A DNA stretch of 41,541 nt. Origin: Nitrosopumilus sp. LS_AOA. GTDB taxonomy: Archaea > Thermoproteota > Nitrososphaeria > Nitrososphaerales > Nitrosopumilaceae. The stretch is from positions 1 through 41,541 of the forward strand of contig LFLC01000022.1 of the NCBI GenBank assembly GCA_001543015.1, in the 5' to 3' direction. Positions 2,531-41,541 of this stretch are shown here, in pieces. The first letter of the stretch is position 1. Each line of letters begins with the position of its first letter. The translations under genes were made by a program, and so were the position numbers. Under the pieces are notes generated by a model. That model was not told the DNA's origin. It did no database searches and saw nothing but the letters and a program-made list of their open reading frames with translations.

Positions 2531-4388
2531 AGAAAAATTTAATCAAATTTCACCTAGTGAATTCTTTTACAGTAATCGTGATTTAGCTGGTTTTAGTAAT
2601 CCTACACGTTCTCTTTATACTGCAGTTAGAGAATTTGTTGAAAATGCATTAGATGCATGTGATCAAAAAGGAATTCTTCCAGACGTTCATTTAACAATAA
2701 AGGCTGTAGATCCTGAAAAATCTGATCCTAAACCATACATTTTGACTGTAAAAGATAATGGCCCTGGAATTGATGCAGAGCATATTCCACCTGCATTTGG
2801 AACTGTACTTTATGGTTCAAAATTTGGACTCAAACAAGCAAGAGGAATGTTTGGTCTTGGTGCAACTATGGCAATTTTGTATGGACAAATTACAACAAAT
2901 AAACCAGTTACTGTAAAGAGTTGTGCAGATGGAAAAATCCAAAACCAATTTGAAATATTACTAGACATTCAAAAAAATAAACCAGTAATTGTTAAACACA
3001 CAACAAAAGAAGTTTCAAAAACAGGACTCTCTGTTAGTATTTGTTTGGAGGGTGATTACTCAAAAGCTGGTATTAAAATTAGAGACTATGTGTATCAAAC
3101 TTCTCTGATTACCCCTTATGCTTCAATTACTTTTGATGATCCTAAAGGACAAAAATTTAGTCATCCTAGATTTGTAAAAAATATACCTTCACCCCCAACA
3201 ATAATTCGACCACATCCACATGGAGTTGATGTAGAAAGAATACGAAGAATGATAGTTGAATCTCAATTTGAAATTCCAATTATTGATGATGCAATGATTG
3301 AAAAAGTGAGAACAGATTTAGGGCTATCCAAGAAAAATCTTAGTTTTACTTCAATCATGGAGAAAGCAGAGAAAAAATGGAAAAATCTTTCACGTCAAGT
3401 TAGAGTAGTAATTGCGTTAATGTCTTTTCTAAAAATGGACTTTGAAAAATTAAACAAAATCAGAATTGAAGATCTTGATATTCCAAACAAAAAATTATCT
3501 TATTGGGATTTTGGTGATTCTCAATCAAAAACAATTGATATGGATCCAGAAAGCCAATATTACAAACAATTAACCAATACTGTTCAAGGTGAACCTCTTA
3601 CTACATTTTTAACAAAACGATTTCAACGAATTGGTCCTACTACTGCAGTCAAATTTGCAGCATTTGTAAAATTCAAACCTGAAAGACGAATGGGTACCCT
3701 ATCTAATCAAGAATTAGTTACCCTAAGTGATGGTCTTCAAAAATTTGAAGACTTTATGGCACCTGATTCGAGTTGTTTGGCTCCCTTGGGTGCTGAACCA
3801 TTAGAAAAAGGCATCAAAAAATTCTTCAATCCTGACTTTACTGCTGTAGTTCAACGCCCAGCTTCTGCATATTCTGGATTCCCTTTCATAGTTGAGATGG
3901 GAATTGCATATGGTGGTGATATAAAATCTGGGGGACCACATGTTTATCGTTATGCAAATCGTATTCCTTTACTTTATGATGAGGGAAGTGATGTAGTTCT
4001 TAAAGTTGTACATGATACTGATTGGGGTAGATACAAAATAAAAGGTGAACCTCCTTTCATAATTGTATCTCATATTTGCTCAACTAGAATTCCATACAAA
4101 ACTGCAGGAAAAGAAAATGTTGCAGACAGAGAAGAAATAGAGAGAGAATTAAGATTGGCATTACAATTCTTGTCACGAAAACTAGCATCATTTATGTCTA
4201 AAAGAGGTCAAGCTGAAATGGCAAAAAAGAGAGCTAATCTTTATGCAAAATATATTCCAATGATTGCAGAATTTTGTACAGAACTTGCTGGAAAGAAAAA
4301 AGAACCAAATTACCAAAAAATATTAGATGCTGAAAAAGCTTCTCAACCAAAATTAATACCGGAGGAAAATAAAATTGAAAACAAGTGA
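2517..4388 (+). CDS. top6B: DNA topoisomerase VI subunit B
   Basis: ATPase subunit of the type IIB topoisomerase. The GHKL (Bergerat) nucleotide fold is clear: N-box REFVENALDACD (38-49), DNGPGI (80-85) and the glycine-rich lid ARGMFGLGATM (108-118). A helix-two-turn-helix and transducer region follow, including the ATP-contacting lysine stretch of the transducer. The 623-residue length is somewhat longer than the ~530 aa of the Sulfolobus protein because of added C-terminal sequence. The start overlaps the KH gene by 14 nt and the 3' end overlaps top6A by 14 nt, so both subunits should be made from one mRNA. Confidence 0.97.
   Translation: MSSIKEKFNQISPSEFFYSNRDLAGFSNPTRSLYTAVREFVENALDACDQKGILPDVHLTIKAVDPEKSDPKPYILTVKDNGPGIDAEHIPPAFGTVLYGSKFGLKQARGMFGLGATMAILYGQITTNKPVTVKSCADGKIQNQFEILLDIQKNKPVIVKHTTKEVSKTGLSVSICLEGDYSKAGIKIRDYVYQTSLITPYASITFDDPKGQKFSHPRFVKNIPSPPTIIRPHPHGVDVERIRRMIVESQFEIPIIDDAMIEKVRTDLGLSKKNLSFTSIMEKAEKKWKNLSRQVRVVIALMSFLKMDFEKLNKIRIEDLDIPNKKLSYWDFGDSQSKTIDMDPESQYYKQLTNTVQGEPLTTFLTKRFQRIGPTTAVKFAAFVKFKPERRMGTLSNQELVTLSDGLQKFEDFMAPDSSCLAPLGAEPLEKGIKKFFNPDFTAVVQRPASAYSGFPFIVEMGIAYGGDIKSGGPHVYRYANRIPLLYDEGSDVVLKVVHDTDWGRYKIKGEPPFIIVSHICSTRIPYKTAGKENVADREEIERELRLALQFLSRKLASFMSKRGQAEMAKKRANLYAKYIPMIAEFCTELAGKKKEPNYQKILDAEKASQPKLIPEENKIENK
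4361..4365 (+). promoter_or_regulatory. Shine-Dalgarno GGAGG for top6A
   Basis: GGAGG inside the end of top6B lies nine bases before a TTG codon at 4375. The spacing is ideal for ribosome binding and decides TTG as the top6A start, even though no ATG is nearby. Such a strong site contrasts with the leaderless genes that surround it and fits internal re-initiation within an operon. Confidence 0.75.
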
Positions 4389-34875: not shown

Positions 34876-36888
34876 CTGAATAAAAATAAATTTAATTCGT
34901 TATTGATTTTTGCAACATTATCCATTGGTTTAATTGCTATTTCTGGTGTGATGCCCGCAGCAAATGCCGCAAACGCTAATCTCTTTGTATCTGCAGAAAA
35001 CTCACAGTTTGATAACTACATGTCAGGACCTCAAGTAATCGAGGTGGTCGTTGTTGATTCTGATATCAATGACACTGATGAAGCAAAAGGTGAGCCAGAT
35101 GTTATAATCAATGGTAAGATCCTAAGAATGGTTCAAGGTGTAGATGGTAATTGGTATGGCTACTTTGCAGATAGAAATCAAGCACAGATTGCCGATAGCA
35201 CTGCAATTAGTGAAAATGGAATAGGTTTGGATTATGGTGATTTTTGTAGTAATGATGATGGTAATACAATTTTAGGATTTGATTTGTCAGAAACTGTAGG
35301 GTATGCAGTAAGTAATACTGGTGAGATTACAGGAGTAATTGGTTCTTCTTTTGGTGGCAGTATTGATAATACTTGTGTCTATATTTCTGGAACTACTGCA
35401 AACACAATGAATGTACTTCGAGAATTTAAAGATGTAAATCCTGGAAATGATGAAGTGTCAATTGGCCAAATTGGTTTAAACAGTATTGATAACTGGCCTT
35501 TCATTCAATTATACAATTTGAATCCAACTGGCAATGTATACGTGCAGTATAACATAGGTGCTGGTGTTCAAACAACAGTACTTACTTTTGATACTGTTGA
35601 AAATTATGCTGGTCTAGAAATAGATAGTAATTATTATTTTATTGATTCTCAAGTTTATCCAACAATTACTGATGTGTGGTTAAACATTGACCCAACTGAT
35701 GAGGATTCTTGGACATTTGGAACGTATGATACTATCAGTTCTAATTATCAAGTATTTGATAAGAATGGAATTGCAGTAGGTGATACACCTGAAAATACTG
35801 ATGACAATCTTTTGACTGGTAAACTTAATGAATTAATGTGTGAAGATAATTGTAGATTACTAATTAATCCTAATGCTCAAAGTGCACTTAATCCTGTACT
35901 CACATTACAGGACAATGATGATACTGGAATAGTTGGTACTGATGCTAATGATGCTACTAGTTTTCAAACCCTTGGTGGAAATCTAAATGGAAAAATTCCT
36001 ATCACTATAACTGAATCCTCTAGTAACAGTGGTGTGTTTGTAATGCATGATGAATCTGATTTATCTATTCTAAAAATCACTGATAATGCTGCAATAGGAA
36101 CGTCTGGTACTATTGATTACAATGAAGAACCAAAAACAATTCTTGTAGTGCTTCCTCCAATCCTTCCACTAAATATCGGTGATGCTTCAGTAAATGAAGA
36201 TGAGGGAACTGTTCTAATTCCAGTCACATGGAATCCTACTGATCCAGCATTTGGAGGTCTTCCAACTTTTCAATTTGGTTATGCAACCTCTGATGGAACA
36301 GCTACTGCAGGAAGTGATTATACTGCGTTTAATATTGTCATAACTCATTCTACTACAAGTGGAATTATCACACTTAGTTTCCCAATCATTGATGATGTGG
36401 AGATAGAATCAGATGAAACATTCACAGTCACCTTAACTGATCCTAATCTCAATAATGAAATAATTGGAACTTCAGTTGTTACAATTATTGATAATGATGT
36501 TGTACCTGTTGCAACTTTCTGTAATGATATGACTATTGACGAACTAATCTCCAGTGGACTATACAATGTAATTGATAACCGAGATGGACATCTTGATGGT
36601 GCTAGTATCACTGGAACAAATGGTGATGATCTAATTTTAGCATCAGACGCTGGAAATGATATCCGTGCAAAGAAAGGTAATGATTGTGTCATTGGCGGTG
36701 CAGGAAATGATAACTTACGAGGTGATAGTGGTAATGACATGCTATTTGGCTTATCTGGAAATGATAAACTCAATGGAGGATCAGGTGATGATGCACTATC
36801 ATGTGGTGATGGAGTAGATAAAGCAAATGGCGGAAAGGGAACTGACACTGCAACTGCAGATTGTGAAACCGTAAAGAAAGTTCCTTGA
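34876..36888 (+). CDS. S-layer-like secreted protein with Calx-beta and RTX repeats
   Basis: The N-terminal signal peptide (ending VMPAANA) leads into ANLFVSAENSQFDNYMSGPQ, which resembles, from memory, thaumarchaeal S-layer proteins. A Calx-beta domain lies near 425-540 (DASVNEDEGT, DGTATAGSDYTAF, DDVEIESDETFTV). The C-terminal 80 residues are RTX calcium-binding repeats (GGAGNDNLRG, GLSGNDKLNGG). The first ordinary start codon is TTG 34903, but that removes the basic n-region. Starting at CTG 34876 restores NKNKFNSLLIFATLS, a normal signal peptide, and lies 26 nt after cataaatat. An ATG at 34872 is out of frame. Acts outside the cell; probably Ca-dependent. Confidence 0.8.
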   Translation: MNKNKFNSLLIFATLSIGLIAISGVMPAANAANANLFVSAENSQFDNYMSGPQVIEVVVVDSDINDTDEAKGEPDVIINGKILRMVQGVDGNWYGYFADRNQAQIADSTAISENGIGLDYGDFCSNDDGNTILGFDLSETVGYAVSNTGEITGVIGSSFGGSIDNTCVYISGTTANTMNVLREFKDVNPGNDEVSIGQIGLNSIDNWPFIQLYNLNPTGNVYVQYNIGAGVQTTVLTFDTVENYAGLEIDSNYYFIDSQVYPTITDVWLNIDPTDEDSWTFGTYDTISSNYQVFDKNGIAVGDTPENTDDNLLTGKLNELMCEDNCRLLINPNAQSALNPVLTLQDNDDTGIVGTDANDATSFQTLGGNLNGKIPITITESSSNSGVFVMHDESDLSILKITDNAAIGTSGTIDYNEEPKTILVVLPPILPLNIGDASVNEDEGTVLIPVTWNPTDPAFGGLPTFQFGYATSDGTATAGSDYTAFNIVITHSTTSGIITLSFPIIDDVEIESDETFTVTLTDPNLNNEIIGTSVVTIIDNDVVPVATFCNDMTIDELISSGLYNVIDNRDGHLDGASITGTNGDDLILASDAGNDIRAKKGNDCVIGGAGNDNLRGDSGNDMLFGLSGNDKLNGGSGDDALSCGDGVDKANGGKGTDTATADCETVKKVP

Positions 36889-37153: not shown

Positions 37154-39691
37154 GTGAGGCTAATTTGGATAATAATCCCATTGATAATTTTTAGTATTAT
37201 TGGAGTTTCAGAATCATTTGCAGAAGGATCACTATACTATGTAAACTCTGTAGATACTGATGGTGTAAATCTCTTACGTGGAATAAGTGCAATTGCTGCA
37301 TCAGGAGATTATGTTTATGCCGTAGCGTATCAAGATAATAGAATTGTAATTGTTGATGTATCTAATCCTGCCAACCCAATCATCACTGCTTCATTTTTTG
37401 ATAATGATGAAACAACACTAAATATTGTAACTGGCATAACTGCAGTTGGAAATTATATCTATGTTACATCCCAATTTAATGAAAATGGCGTTTCCATAAT
37501 TGATGTATCTGATCCTACTAATCCAACACATGTTGGAACTATAATTGATGATGATTCCACATTACTTGTAGGTGCAAGTGGAATTGATGTACAAGGAGAT
37601 TATGCATACGTCACTTCTGGTCTGGATAATACAGTAACAATACTTGATGTATCTGATCCTACTAATCCAACACAGATAGGTTTCATAACAGATGATGACA
37701 CAATTGCACTAAATCATCCAAGAGACATAACTGTAGTTGGAAATCTTGCATATGTAACTTCAATTTTTGATCATGGTGTTTCCATACTTGATGTATCTGA
37801 TCCCGCCAATCCTAAACATCTTGGTTCCATAACTGATGATGATACAACTTTTCTTGTTCAATCTGACACAATTACTGTAGTTGGAGATTATGCATATGTT
37901 GGCTCTATTTTTGATCATACAGTAACAATACTTGATGTATCTGATCCCACCAATCCTAAACATCTTGGTTCAATAACTGATGATGATGAAACTGCTCTAA
38001 AAGGAACAACTGACATTATAGTAGATGGTATCTACGCATATGTTGGTGCGTATCAGGATGGAGGAGTTGAGGTATTAGATATTTCAAATCCCTCAAATCC
38101 AATCCATGTCAGTTCTATAACTAAATCTGATAAAAAATCACTTTTTGGTGCTGGACCATTGGCAATGACTAATGATTATCTCTATGTTGGAACTGCTAGT
38201 GGTTTTGATATTCTTACCACCAACATAGAACTAATCTCTACATCTACTGATAATTTTTCACCAACACCTGACTCTGAACCTATAATTGTTAATGACTTGG
38301 AATCCACTCAAACTAAATCGAATTCTCAAACCAGTGATATTTCTACAAGTGAATGGATTGCTGTATCTGATGATTTAGCAAACAATTCAGTTGCCCAAGA
38401 TATTTTACGAAAGATAGAGCAGACAAAAAAATGGATTGAAGAACTAGAGCAGCGAAATTATGAAAATCTAGAAAAACAAAAGGAGTTAGAAGAAAAAAGA
38501 AAACAGTCTCTTGTAAGACTAAATCAAGATCTGATAGATTGGGAAAACCTTTGGAATTATTATTCTCCACATAATTCTTTTGAACGATTTGTTGATAAAG
38601 TCAAAAACTCTCAAGTACAAGATGTATTCTGGGATCAATTCGAATTCAAAGAACAAAAAGTCAAATCTGGGCGAGATGCATTCAAACAAGTACTTGCAGA
38701 CGGCGGTTCAAGACGTGCTGCATTACAGGCATATCTTGCAGCTGCTGAAACAAAAAGAATTGAACTAATCGAGGCAAATTCTCAGTTTAATGTGAGACAC
38801 AACCTAGCATATTATTCTCAACAGATTCTTTTTGATAAGGATGGACAATTTGTAGATTCACCGGCATCTGGAGAACAATTGCGTGAATACTATGAAGATT
38901 ATAAAACAAATCCTTCATACCTGAATGCAAATCCAAATGATGCTGTATCTTGGTATGATATTGGAAAAACAAATCCAAATACTGAATGTAGAGAAGGACA
39001 AACTGTAGTACATCGTTTTCAATCAGATGATTATGTCTGTGTGACTGTATCTACTGCAGAGATGTGGGTACGATATGGTATGGGTGAAATCACGGGTGAT
39101 TCAGGAGTTAACACACGTGATGAATATTCTGTTACACCTCTTACAAAATGTGATGATGGATTTAGTGTGATATTTAATACAAATACTAAAAAATATTCTT
39201 GTGTTCTTGATGACACTGCAAATGATTGGATAGTACAAGGAATTGCAGAACTTCATACATCTGAAGATTACATCATAAAAAGTATCAAACTCAAGGATTC
39301 TTTTTTGAAAATTAATGAAATTAATCATCAAATTAAAGAAATGAAAAATAACTTAGAGATAGAACAAATAGAATTAAAAAAAATGTATGATAAAAAATAT
39401 GATGAGATATTAGTACAATTACAAATCAATAAAAAGAATATAATTAAAAATTATAACGAAGGTTCAGATATGTCAAAAGAAGAATTCACTATCAAGATTT
39501 CTGAACTTAGGAAACAATACAAATTAGAAAAACAAAGTATTCTTGATGATAAAATTAAAAATTCTAATGAATTAAAAAAAGAATATGATTTGAAAATGGA
39601 AAAATTTGTAACAAGTTATGAGGATGATCCTTACGTTAAGATAGTGTTTAACTCTGGTAATAATGCATATGAGGCAGTTGTAAGATACTGA
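37154..39691 (+). CDS. Secreted LVIVD beta-propeller protein with coiled coils and two Cys modules
   Basis: An 845-residue secreted protein. A signal peptide (IWIIIPLIIFSIIGVSESFA) is followed by about seven repeats of some 46 residues (GDYAYVTS...VTILDVSDPTNP), the LVIVD type that forms a seven-bladed propeller (about 25-355). A linker and coiled coil (about 410-460) come next. A helical region then leads to two 31-residue modules, each with two cysteines (C612 and C666 start them), and the C-terminus has long coiled coils (about 700-830). The GTG start at 37154 is about 28 nt after TATA-like ctttatga. The neighbour downstream carries the same module near its N-terminus. A surface structural or binding role is inferred. 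Confidence 0.8.
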   Translation: MRLIWIIIPLIIFSIIGVSESFAEGSLYYVNSVDTDGVNLLRGISAIAASGDYVYAVAYQDNRIVIVDVSNPANPIITASFFDNDETTLNIVTGITAVGNYIYVTSQFNENGVSIIDVSDPTNPTHVGTIIDDDSTLLVGASGIDVQGDYAYVTSGLDNTVTILDVSDPTNPTQIGFITDDDTIALNHPRDITVVGNLAYVTSIFDHGVSILDVSDPANPKHLGSITDDDTTFLVQSDTITVVGDYAYVGSIFDHTVTILDVSDPTNPKHLGSITDDDETALKGTTDIIVDGIYAYVGAYQDGGVEVLDISNPSNPIHVSSITKSDKKSLFGAGPLAMTNDYLYVGTASGFDILTTNIELISTSTDNFSPTPDSEPIIVNDLESTQTKSNSQTSDISTSEWIAVSDDLANNSVAQDILRKIEQTKKWIEELEQRNYENLEKQKELEEKRKQSLVRLNQDLIDWENLWNYYSPHNSFERFVDKVKNSQVQDVFWDQFEFKEQKVKSGRDAFKQVLADGGSRRAALQAYLAAAETKRIELIEANSQFNVRHNLAYYSQQILFDKDGQFVDSPASGEQLREYYEDYKTNPSYLNANPNDAVSWYDIGKTNPNTECREGQTVVHRFQSDDYVCVTVSTAEMWVRYGMGEITGDSGVNTRDEYSVTPLTKCDDGFSVIFNTNTKKYSCVLDDTANDWIVQGIAELHTSEDYIIKSIKLKDSFLKINEINHQIKEMKNNLEIEQIELKKMYDKKYDEILVQLQINKKNIIKNYNEGSDMSKEEFTIKISELRKQYKLEKQSILDDKIKNSNELKKEYDLKMEKFVTSYEDDPYVKIVFNSGNNAYEAVVRY

Positions 39692-39895
39692 TCTTAATTG
39701 TAATTAATTGATAAAATTTGTATTAAATTAGAAAATAAAAATCAAATTCATTTGTGGTGTTGAATTTTTAGTTTGATGCCCTAAAAATGGTATAGTTTTG
39801 CATAGTTTAGAGTAGGCATGGGTGGAAAAATTTAGTTCGAAAGTGATTCCGAAATAGGCATAACATTTTTCTTTACAATTCCAAATGTAATGTGA

Positions 39896-41541
39896 ATGAA
39901 AGAAAAATATGTGCTCTCTTTGAGTTTTTTGATATTTTTTGCAGTTTTAACATCCCTTGATATCTCAGCTAATGGTGATTTACATGAGGACGTGACATGT
40001 TCGGAAGGCTCTGAGATCGTTTTCAAACCCTCAACTGGACTACCAATATGTGTAAAATCATCAAGCGTTGAGAATTTCATTAATAGAGGATATACCGTTC
40101 CTACTCCAACGCAAGAACCTCTACGTATTGGATTATTGTTTTCAACGACTGGAGATTATTCAACATATGGAAAAGAAAGCAATTTTGCAGCACTACAAGC
40201 TATAGATGATTTCAATGAATATCTAAAGTCAATTGACAAAGAAGAATTTAGTTTGATTCCAGAAATTGTTAAACTCTCAACTGATCCTGAATTTACTTTA
40301 TTACATTTAAAAAAATTACATGCAGATGGAATAGATGTTTTCATTGGACCAGAAACAAGTGCAGAGCTTGAAATGATAAAACCATTTGTTGATTCTGAAC
40401 AAATACTAGTAATCAGTCCATCATCTACTGCTCCTTCTTTGGCAGTTGCAGACAGCATTTACAGACTTGTTCCTGATGATACCCATCAAGCAAAATTAAT
40501 TACTACACTTTTGGAAGATAACGACATTACTACTGTATTTCTTTTGGTTCGTGATGATATTTGGGGAAACGGACTTGCTGATGCAATTAAAGAATCATAC
40601 TCTGGGGAGATTTTACAAATTAGTTATGATCCCGAAGACCATTTGTATGAGGAAAAATTACAGGAATTATTTGAACTTGTTGCAGCCGAGGAATCCCTAC
40701 AAAATACTGTAATAGGTATAATCAGCTTTGGTGAAGTTGCTGAGTTTTTATTGCATGCTACAGACTATGACCTTCTTGATGAAGTAATGTGGTTTGGAAC
40801 AGATTCTAATGCAAATGAGAATAAGATAATTCAAGATAACAAAATTTCTGCATTTGCAGAAAAAGTTTCATTCAGAGCAATTCAATTTGCAAGTGATTAT
40901 GATAGCACTATCCATAAAAATATCGAGTCAAAACTTTATTTAGAATTGGGATATTTGCCAAGCACTTATGCATTTGGTGCATATGATGCAGTATGGCTTG
41001 TAGGTCTAAGTATGTTGGAGGCAGACAGTACAGATTCAATTGCTATAGAATCAACAATTCTTGATACATCCAAATCTTACAAGGGAGCATTGGGAGATTT
41101 GTATTTTAATGATGCAGGAGATTTAGTGTCAGATAATTATGATATTTGGTCTGTTGTAGAAGGTAAATGGTACAAAGGTAATTTTAGAGAAAATAGTGAG
41201 ACTGGTATAATAGAAAAAGTTGAAGATGTTGTTGTTGCACAAGAACAATCACCATCTACTGAAACTGAGATTACTCCTACAGAACAATCACCATCTACTG
41301 AAACTGAGATTACTCCTACAGAACAATTACCATTTACTGAGGGTGATATCCCTGTTCTTGCAATTGCATTGATTGCTGGTATTTCATTTATTATTTTATT
41401 ATTAGTATGGAGATTTAAAAAATCTCAAACCCGTTTAAAAGATTCAGACCACATTGATAAGATTGAACCAACTCCAGAACCAACTCCAGAACCAACTCCA
41501 GAACCAACTCCAGAACCAACTCCAGAACCAACTCCAGAACC
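39896..41541 (+). CDS. PBP1-type receptor-like membrane protein (3' truncated)
   Basis: Starts at ATG 39896 and runs off the window. The signal peptide (KEKYVLSLSFLIFFAVLTSL) is followed by one two-cysteine module (C35), then a periplasmic-binding-protein type 1 domain of about 380 residues. That domain has IGLLFSTTGDYSTYGKESNF, VFIGPETSAELEMIKPFV, ISPSSTAPSLAVAD and FGAYDAVWLVGLSML, as in branched-chain amino-acid receptors (LivJ). A repeated threonine/glutamate linker, one TM helix (IPVLAIALIAGISFIILLLV, about 485-505), a basic stop-transfer and an EPTP repeat follow. This is a tethered receptor rather than a free binding protein. No transporter subunits are seen in the window. Confidence 0.8.
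   Translation, partial: MKEKYVLSLSFLIFFAVLTSLDISANGDLHEDVTCSEGSEIVFKPSTGLPICVKSSSVENFINRGYTVPTPTQEPLRIGLLFSTTGDYSTYGKESNFAALQAIDDFNEYLKSIDKEEFSLIPEIVKLSTDPEFTLLHLKKLHADGIDVFIGPETSAELEMIKPFVDSEQILVISPSSTAPSLAVADSIYRLVPDDTHQAKLITTLLEDNDITTVFLLVRDDIWGNGLADAIKESYSGEILQISYDPEDHLYEEKLQELFELVAAEESLQNTVIGIISFGEVAEFLLHATDYDLLDEVMWFGTDSNANENKIIQDNKISAFAEKVSFRAIQFASDYDSTIHKNIESKLYLELGYLPSTYAFGAYDAVWLVGLSMLEADSTDSIAIESTILDTSKSYKGALGDLYFNDAGDLVSDNYDIWSVVEGKWYKGNFRENSETGIIEKVEDVVVAQEQSPSTETEITPTEQSPSTETEITPTEQLPFTEGDIPVLAIALIAGISFIILLLVWRFKKSQTRLKDSDHIDKIEPTPEPTPEPTPEPTPEPTPEPTPE
41242..41340 (+). repeat. 39-bp tandem repeat in receptor linker
   Basis: A 39-bp unit beginning agaacaatcaccatctactg occurs twice exactly (41242-41280 and 41281-41319), followed by a partial diverged copy. 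It encodes EQSPSTETEITPT, a hydrophilic linker between the ligand-binding domain and the membrane helix. In frame, so it changes only linker length. Confidence 0.9.
41465..41541 (+). repeat. 12-bp tandem repeat encoding EPTP
   Basis: Six full copies of gaaccaactcca and part of a seventh run to the window edge, encoding EPTP units after the membrane helix. Total length cannot be seen. Copies are identical, indicating a recent expansion by slippage. Confidence 0.95.

Follow-up and report, generated by a model that had tools for sequence, protein, structure and literature searches.

The 41,541-nucleotide contig LFLC01000022.1 of Nitrosopumilus sp. LS_AOA (here called the window, which is the entire contig, from a genome of 1.93 Mb) encodes two adjacent exported proteins that together contain three copies of a small two-cysteine module. 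We found that these copies match the WING-49 family (NCBIfam NF058652), and as judged from sequence they are divergent members of this already named, functionally unexplained domain family. We tentatively propose that the three segments are WING-49 domains that dock exported proteins to a shared partner at the cell surface, a reading that we regard as close to evenly poised. What is new here is the invariance of the cysteines, the range of hosts, the placement of the module within them, the clustering of the genes, the predicted fold, the fusion in one window protein, and the reading of the other, a putative receptor, as part of a sensor kinase.

Three divergent copies of WING-49 in the window

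A preliminary description of the window had reported three 31-residue segments. In-frame translation of the forward strand gave CREGQTVVHRFQSDDYVCVTVSTAEMWVRYG for copy 1 (core, 38987 to 39079), CDDGFSVIFNTNTKKYSCVLDDTANDWIVQG for copy 2 (39149 to 39241), and CSEGSEIVFKPSTGLPICVKSSSVENFINRG for copy 3 (core, 39998 to 40090). Each copy fits the spacing C-x2-G-x13-C-V-x3-[ST]-[AV]-x2-[WF]-[IV]-x2-G that had been claimed, and the cysteines stand 17 residues apart (i and i+17) in all three, as had been described. Copy 1 (profile match at 38984 to 39085) lies in the helical half of a fused propeller protein, with copy 2 in tandem 54 residues past it; copy 3 (profile match at 39983 to 40096) comes immediately after the signal peptide of a PBP-type sensor.

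Both proteins match NF058652 (release 20.0), a model of 49 positions with a curated whole-protein cut-off of 22 bits and no function given. The PBP protein scored 43.7 bits (E = 2.3e-11), and the propeller protein scored 32.4 bits (E = 7.7e-8) over two stretches. A profile search of the whole genome recovered copy 3 at an E value of 2.9e-12 and copy 1 at 6.7e-4; searched singly, copy 1 reached 21.3 bits, slightly below the 22-bit cut-off. Copy 2 emerged when we searched with a family-derived profile (26.7 bits, E = 6e-7). The NF058652 matches, the whole-genome matches, and the family-built profile rule out a chance match as the origin of the modules. The preliminary description knew of no named family and suggested an undescribed module; we rejected this because NCBIfam already lists NF058652 as "WING-49." The similar C.eG....K......C stretches that it mentioned in other thaumarchaeal exported proteins proved to be members of the same family. 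Pfam, where it had proposed to look for a known family, has no match for the modules: Pfam-A returned nothing for either module region at E values up to 10. Among the PDB sequences we found no relative of the module, either by single sequence or by profile, and the literature that we searched contained no mention of WING-49 or of an attachment system for exported proteins in ammonia-oxidizing archaea.

The window copies share with typical NF058652 members the core profile, the cysteine pair, the exported hosts, and the organisms, and they match only profile positions from about 11 or 15 to 48. They differ in that they have no N-terminal PLKQ-x3-G arm and carry Y, M, or I close to the place that a C-terminal W usually takes, reading RGY, RYG, and VQG where RGW is usual. 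Both the arm and the terminal RGW are frequent features of the family that do not define it, and the arm is also missing from other members that score above the cut-off.

The cysteine pair is invariant and very likely forms a disulfide

From the loci that we fetched, we collected 196 distinct WING-49 modules in 185 open frames. Exactly two cysteines were present in 194 of the 196 copies; of the remaining two, one is a truncated piece and the other has a third cysteine. None of the 196 was a full-length copy without the cysteine pair; profile searching favors copies that bear cysteines, and most copies score far enough above the threshold for the loss of a single cysteine to show. The spacing of the pair was 17 in 165 copies, 16 in 24, 15 in 4, and 18 in 1. 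The fuller consensus reads [SP]-P-L-K-Q-x3-G-x5-V-x-C-x-E-G-L-x-L-V-x-K-x3-G-x-P-A-C-V-K-x2-T-x2-K-L-I-E-R-G-W.

All of the cysteines of the two window proteins lie within modules, four in the propeller protein and two in the PBP protein. More widely, 41 of 165 hosts, spread over 19 of 56 host families, have no cysteine outside the module. In such hosts there is no other cysteine to pair with, and therefore the module pair must bond either internally or between molecules. Because the two window proteins have no further cysteine, we favor the internal bond, and an intramodule disulfide between the two cysteines is very likely on this pattern. The same two facts, invariant cysteines and window proteins with no others, would also suit a redox switch or intermolecular disulfides that cross-link exported proteins. 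We consider this a very improbable explanation, since the near-fixed spacing, the constant number of two per module, and the changes in hairpin length (15 to 18) fit a structural bond within the module, and there is no CxxC-type motif and no conserved histidine or other metal ligand. In two relatives with one module (L123 and L124), copy 2 is cleanly missing together with both of its cysteines.

WING-49 is predicted to be a beta-hairpin followed by a helix

The AlphaFold2 model of copy 3, built from 58 sequences, had a mean pLDDT of 72, with a core of about 85. It places a strand at residues 20 to 24, a second strand at 31 to 35, and a helix at 36 to 44, i.e., a beta-hairpin plus a helix. C16 is four residues ahead of strand 1, and C33 is within hairpin strand 2. 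When the helical half of the propeller protein was modeled (17 sequences, pLDDT of 70), the tandem modules lay between long helices, and each again comprised strand, strand, and helix (225 to 230, 235 to 240, and 241 to 249; 279 to 284, 289 to 294, and 295 to 303). On this basis, WING-49 would be a stand-alone domain with a length of about 49 residues. Its beta-hairpin would be closed near the base by the Cys-Cys disulfide and would lead into an alpha-helix and then a short strand. A beta-hairpin that resembles that of the module, without cysteines, is also predicted for the final residues of the propeller protein (about 39635 to 39682; YVKIVFNSGNNAYEAVVRY).

Foldseek searches with the single-module and tandem models gave no match at an E value of 0.001 or below. 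With the single module, a BRK domain scored best (E = 1.5), and the tandem model gave repeated weak matches to follistatin and to complement C6/C7 modules (E = 0.7 to 3.5). The N-terminal hairpin of follistatin and the factor-I-like modules of C6 and C7 likewise have a disulfide-bearing beta-hairpin with a C-x2-G...P-x-C-V pattern, and a Kazal-type segment directly follows WING-49 in three hosts (one by Pfam, two by eye), an order of domains that follistatin also has. However, those modules have several disulfides, whereas WING-49 would have one, together with a C-terminal helix. Homology to follistatin is not supported: the hhalign probability was 6.7 (with a follistatin sequence entered by hand), and WING-49 has two cysteines only.

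WING-49 is appended to diverse exported proteins, usually at an end

We masked the module and grouped the complete genes, which gave the 56 host families. A hydrophobic signal-like stretch lies ahead of the module in 171 of the 176 hosts with a known start, and both window proteins have such a stretch at the N terminus, as judged by hydrophobicity. The hosts include dienelactone hydrolase (DLH), glucose/sorbosone dehydrogenase (GSDH), sulfatase, alkylsulfatase, other metallo-beta-lactamase-fold enzymes, and DUF1254/1214 proteins, as well as subtilase, VWA, Ig, Ice_binding-like, Hint-like, Kazal, and PBP kinase proteins. The module is at the end of the protein in 75% of host families, compared with 29% expected, and none of 20,000 simulations was as extreme. 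C-terminal copies stop 1 to 15 residues short of the stop codon. Genes for WING-49 proteins also cluster: in five complete relatives, 22 gaps between neighbors were below 5 kb, compared with 6.0 expected.

The marked tendency of the module to sit at the N or C terminus, the C-terminal copies that end just before the stop codon, and the invariance of the cysteine pair would also suit a folding or stability cap, i.e., a disulfide-stapled end that guards against exoproteases or aids export and has no partner. This seems improbable, as copies are internal in 18 of the 56 host families, the tandem pair of the window lies inside a helical protein, and a cap does not need the conserved RGW helix end. 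Export, end placement, hosts without a common catalytic theme, and gene clustering together are what one would expect of a tag that docks its hosts to a single partner. Our best guess is that exported proteins of Nitrosopumilaceae-type archaea carry WING-49 as an interchangeable attachment that would dock them to a common cell-surface partner, for which the S-layer, its glycans, and a surface matrix are candidates. In the window, it would hold at the surface layer both the propeller/helical protein and the PBP sensor kinase, the latter by its outer end.

SLH domains, dockerins, and the thaumarchaeal PEFG-CTERM tail are each appended to the ends of many unrelated exported proteins in one lineage. 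WING-49 has no sequence match to any of these. It differs from CTERM signals in having no transmembrane helix or basic tail and from dockerins in having no calcium loops, and it can be N-terminal, C-terminal, or internal. It is possible, at a lower level of confidence than docking as such, that WING-49 is a lineage-specific plug-in of Nitrosopumilaceae-type ammonia-oxidizing archaea. It would join enzymes, sensors, and Ig proteins, unrelated to one another and numbering in the tens, to one surface receptor, as an archaeal counterpart of SLH domains and dockerins with a fold absent from solved structures.

WING-49 is confined to one archaeal lineage, and its copy number follows genome size

The whole-genome profile search found 29 WING-49 copies in this genome. 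In the class, 130 of 250 genomes had a match, nearly all of them in the family of the window and a few in the other families of the order; per-genome counts near 26 in this survey are to be read as at least 26. There was no WING-49 outside the order among 300 genomes across the phylum and no match in 14 control genomes. A scan of 84,980 species returned only Nitrosopumilus, Nitrosarchaeum, Nitrosotenuis, Nitrosotalea, and unnamed Nitrososphaerota, plus one contig labeled Alphaproteobacteria. The preliminary description had expected a hidden Markov model search to give matches confined to secreted Nitrososphaeria proteins of varied architectures, and this is the distribution that emerged, that of a recurrent two-cysteine module. 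On the contig filed under an alphaproteobacterial metagenome-assembled genome (L194), WING-49 stands beside archaeal-looking CofC/CofD-like genes (named by eye), and this contig is probably mis-binned. We also looked for WING-49 in viral contigs, phages, and plasmids and found no match; an origin from a mobile element or virus was therefore rejected.

Within the genus of the window, copy number as counted in this class survey climbs with genome size (Spearman, 0.78; n = 62 genomes), from a mean of 2.0 copies in genomes of 1.3 Mb or less to 14.3 in genomes of 1.6 Mb or more. The steep fall in small genomes suggests a link to lifestyle. Such a rise is also what a niche-related function would give, and this bears on the main rival to docking, which is ligand binding: WING-49 could be an accessory module like a carbohydrate-binding module that would bring its enzyme and sensor hosts to a substrate or polymer that they share, for instance an exopolysaccharide, rather than to the surface of the cell itself. 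In favor of this, hydrolases, sulfatases, sugar dehydrogenases, and binding proteins make up many of the hosts and carry the module at their ends. However, the hosts are highly diverse, with sensors, a protease, and Ig and ice-binding-like proteins among them that have no substrate in common, and past one W/Y/M position there is no conserved set of surface aromatics. We therefore consider ligand binding rather unlikely, although it is the alternative that we take most seriously.

With regard to the partner in the docking proposal, two observations point weakly to the S-layer. Among the genomes of the genus with a single copy, most of those examined retain it on an Ig protein that is a relative of S-layer protein 8c8k (E = 8.6e-9), and in 52 of 53 families the module has a less acidic composition than the host that carries it. 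The S-layer of Nitrosopumilus maritimus, which such modules would face, is strongly acidic (PMC11153153). Four observations weigh against docking to a surface partner. Several genomes of the window's own family have no WING-49 copy, and thus the module is not a universal part of the surface. S-layer paralogue genes were no nearer to WING-49 genes than expected by chance (1 of 13, compared with 1.8 expected, in the five complete relatives). The window copies have net charges of -3, -3, and -4, which do not fit a simple electrostatic dock. Finally, the PBP sensor has its own transmembrane helix and needs no anchor. A gene common to the neighborhoods was also considered as the docking partner and rejected, since the largest neighbor cluster is made up of exported proteins that are unrelated and were grouped together through their repeats.

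WING-49 marks a large set of exported proteins (up to about 29 per genome) in archaea that are important for the nitrogen cycle. Should it prove to be a docking tag, it would specify the proteins organized at the surface and give a handle with which to label or pull down a surface that is hard to study.

The two host proteins of the window and their upstream neighbor

The first host gene (37154 to 39691, forward strand) encodes an exported protein of 845 amino acids in which six LVIVD-repeat stretches, a propeller, are fused to a conserved helical protein with the tandem WING-49 copies. The preliminary description had placed two modules in a propeller protein. They do lie in this protein, but the setting needed correction: residues 392 to 845, with both modules, correspond to a conserved helical protein of about 450 amino acids (38327 to 39688, forward strand) that is a separate secreted protein in other genomes. 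Relatives of about 480 to 490 amino acids match only these residues, at 44 to 66% identity, and have signal peptides of their own. The fusion of propeller and helical protein was not seen in the 80 other genomes of the family that were searched.

The second host gene (39896 to 41539, forward strand) is open at the end of the contig. It encodes a signal peptide, WING-49, an ANF/Peripla_BP ligand domain, a transmembrane helix, and PTPEP repeats. It had been called a PBP-type receptor, and the ligand domain is indeed present, although the gene is truncated by the contig end. In its closest relative (L078; 59% identity), the transmembrane helix is followed by a (PTPEPE)n linker and then an HATPase_c domain, and the window gene is cut at 41541, inside PTPEP repeats of like kind. 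The continuation into HATPase_c in the relative, together with the shared type of repeat at the point where the window ends, makes it probable that the "receptor" is the front part of a sensor histidine kinase that carries WING-49 at the outer end. Frames of great length, with several PBP-type domains in tandem, occur in another relative (genome G132, e.g., C1:2018223-2023067).

Upstream of both genes is an S-layer paralogue (34903 to 36888, forward strand). Its N-terminal 400 residues or so resemble the N. maritimus S-layer protein 8c8k (E = 6.3e-130), and Calx-beta and RTX calcium-binding repeats then replace the further Ig domains of the S-layer protein. Linkage between S-layer paralogues and WING-49 genes is suggestive in this genome alone (in the window and on C10 in L043).

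Several other WING-49 loci have unusual arrangements. Three paralogues of 1,122 to 1,211 amino acids carry an internal WING-49 (L031, 73 to 3471; L038, 9552 to 12917; L045, 6916 to 10548), and two of them have weak, sub-threshold matches to the T4 tail-tube protein gp19, with no support from PHROGs. Next to the first of these, at 3480 to 11827 of L031 (contig C6), is a row of exported enzymes, comprising two metallo-beta-lactamase-fold enzymes, an alkylsulfatase, and DUF1254/1214, which have near-alike signal peptides and a shortened WING-49 in common. Lastly, a WING-49 protein in L150 (9309 to 10925) has a C-terminal Hint-like domain (Hint_2, E = 6e-5, sub-threshold), and a WING-49 protein in L050 (991 to 2295) shares this Hint-like segment by eye.

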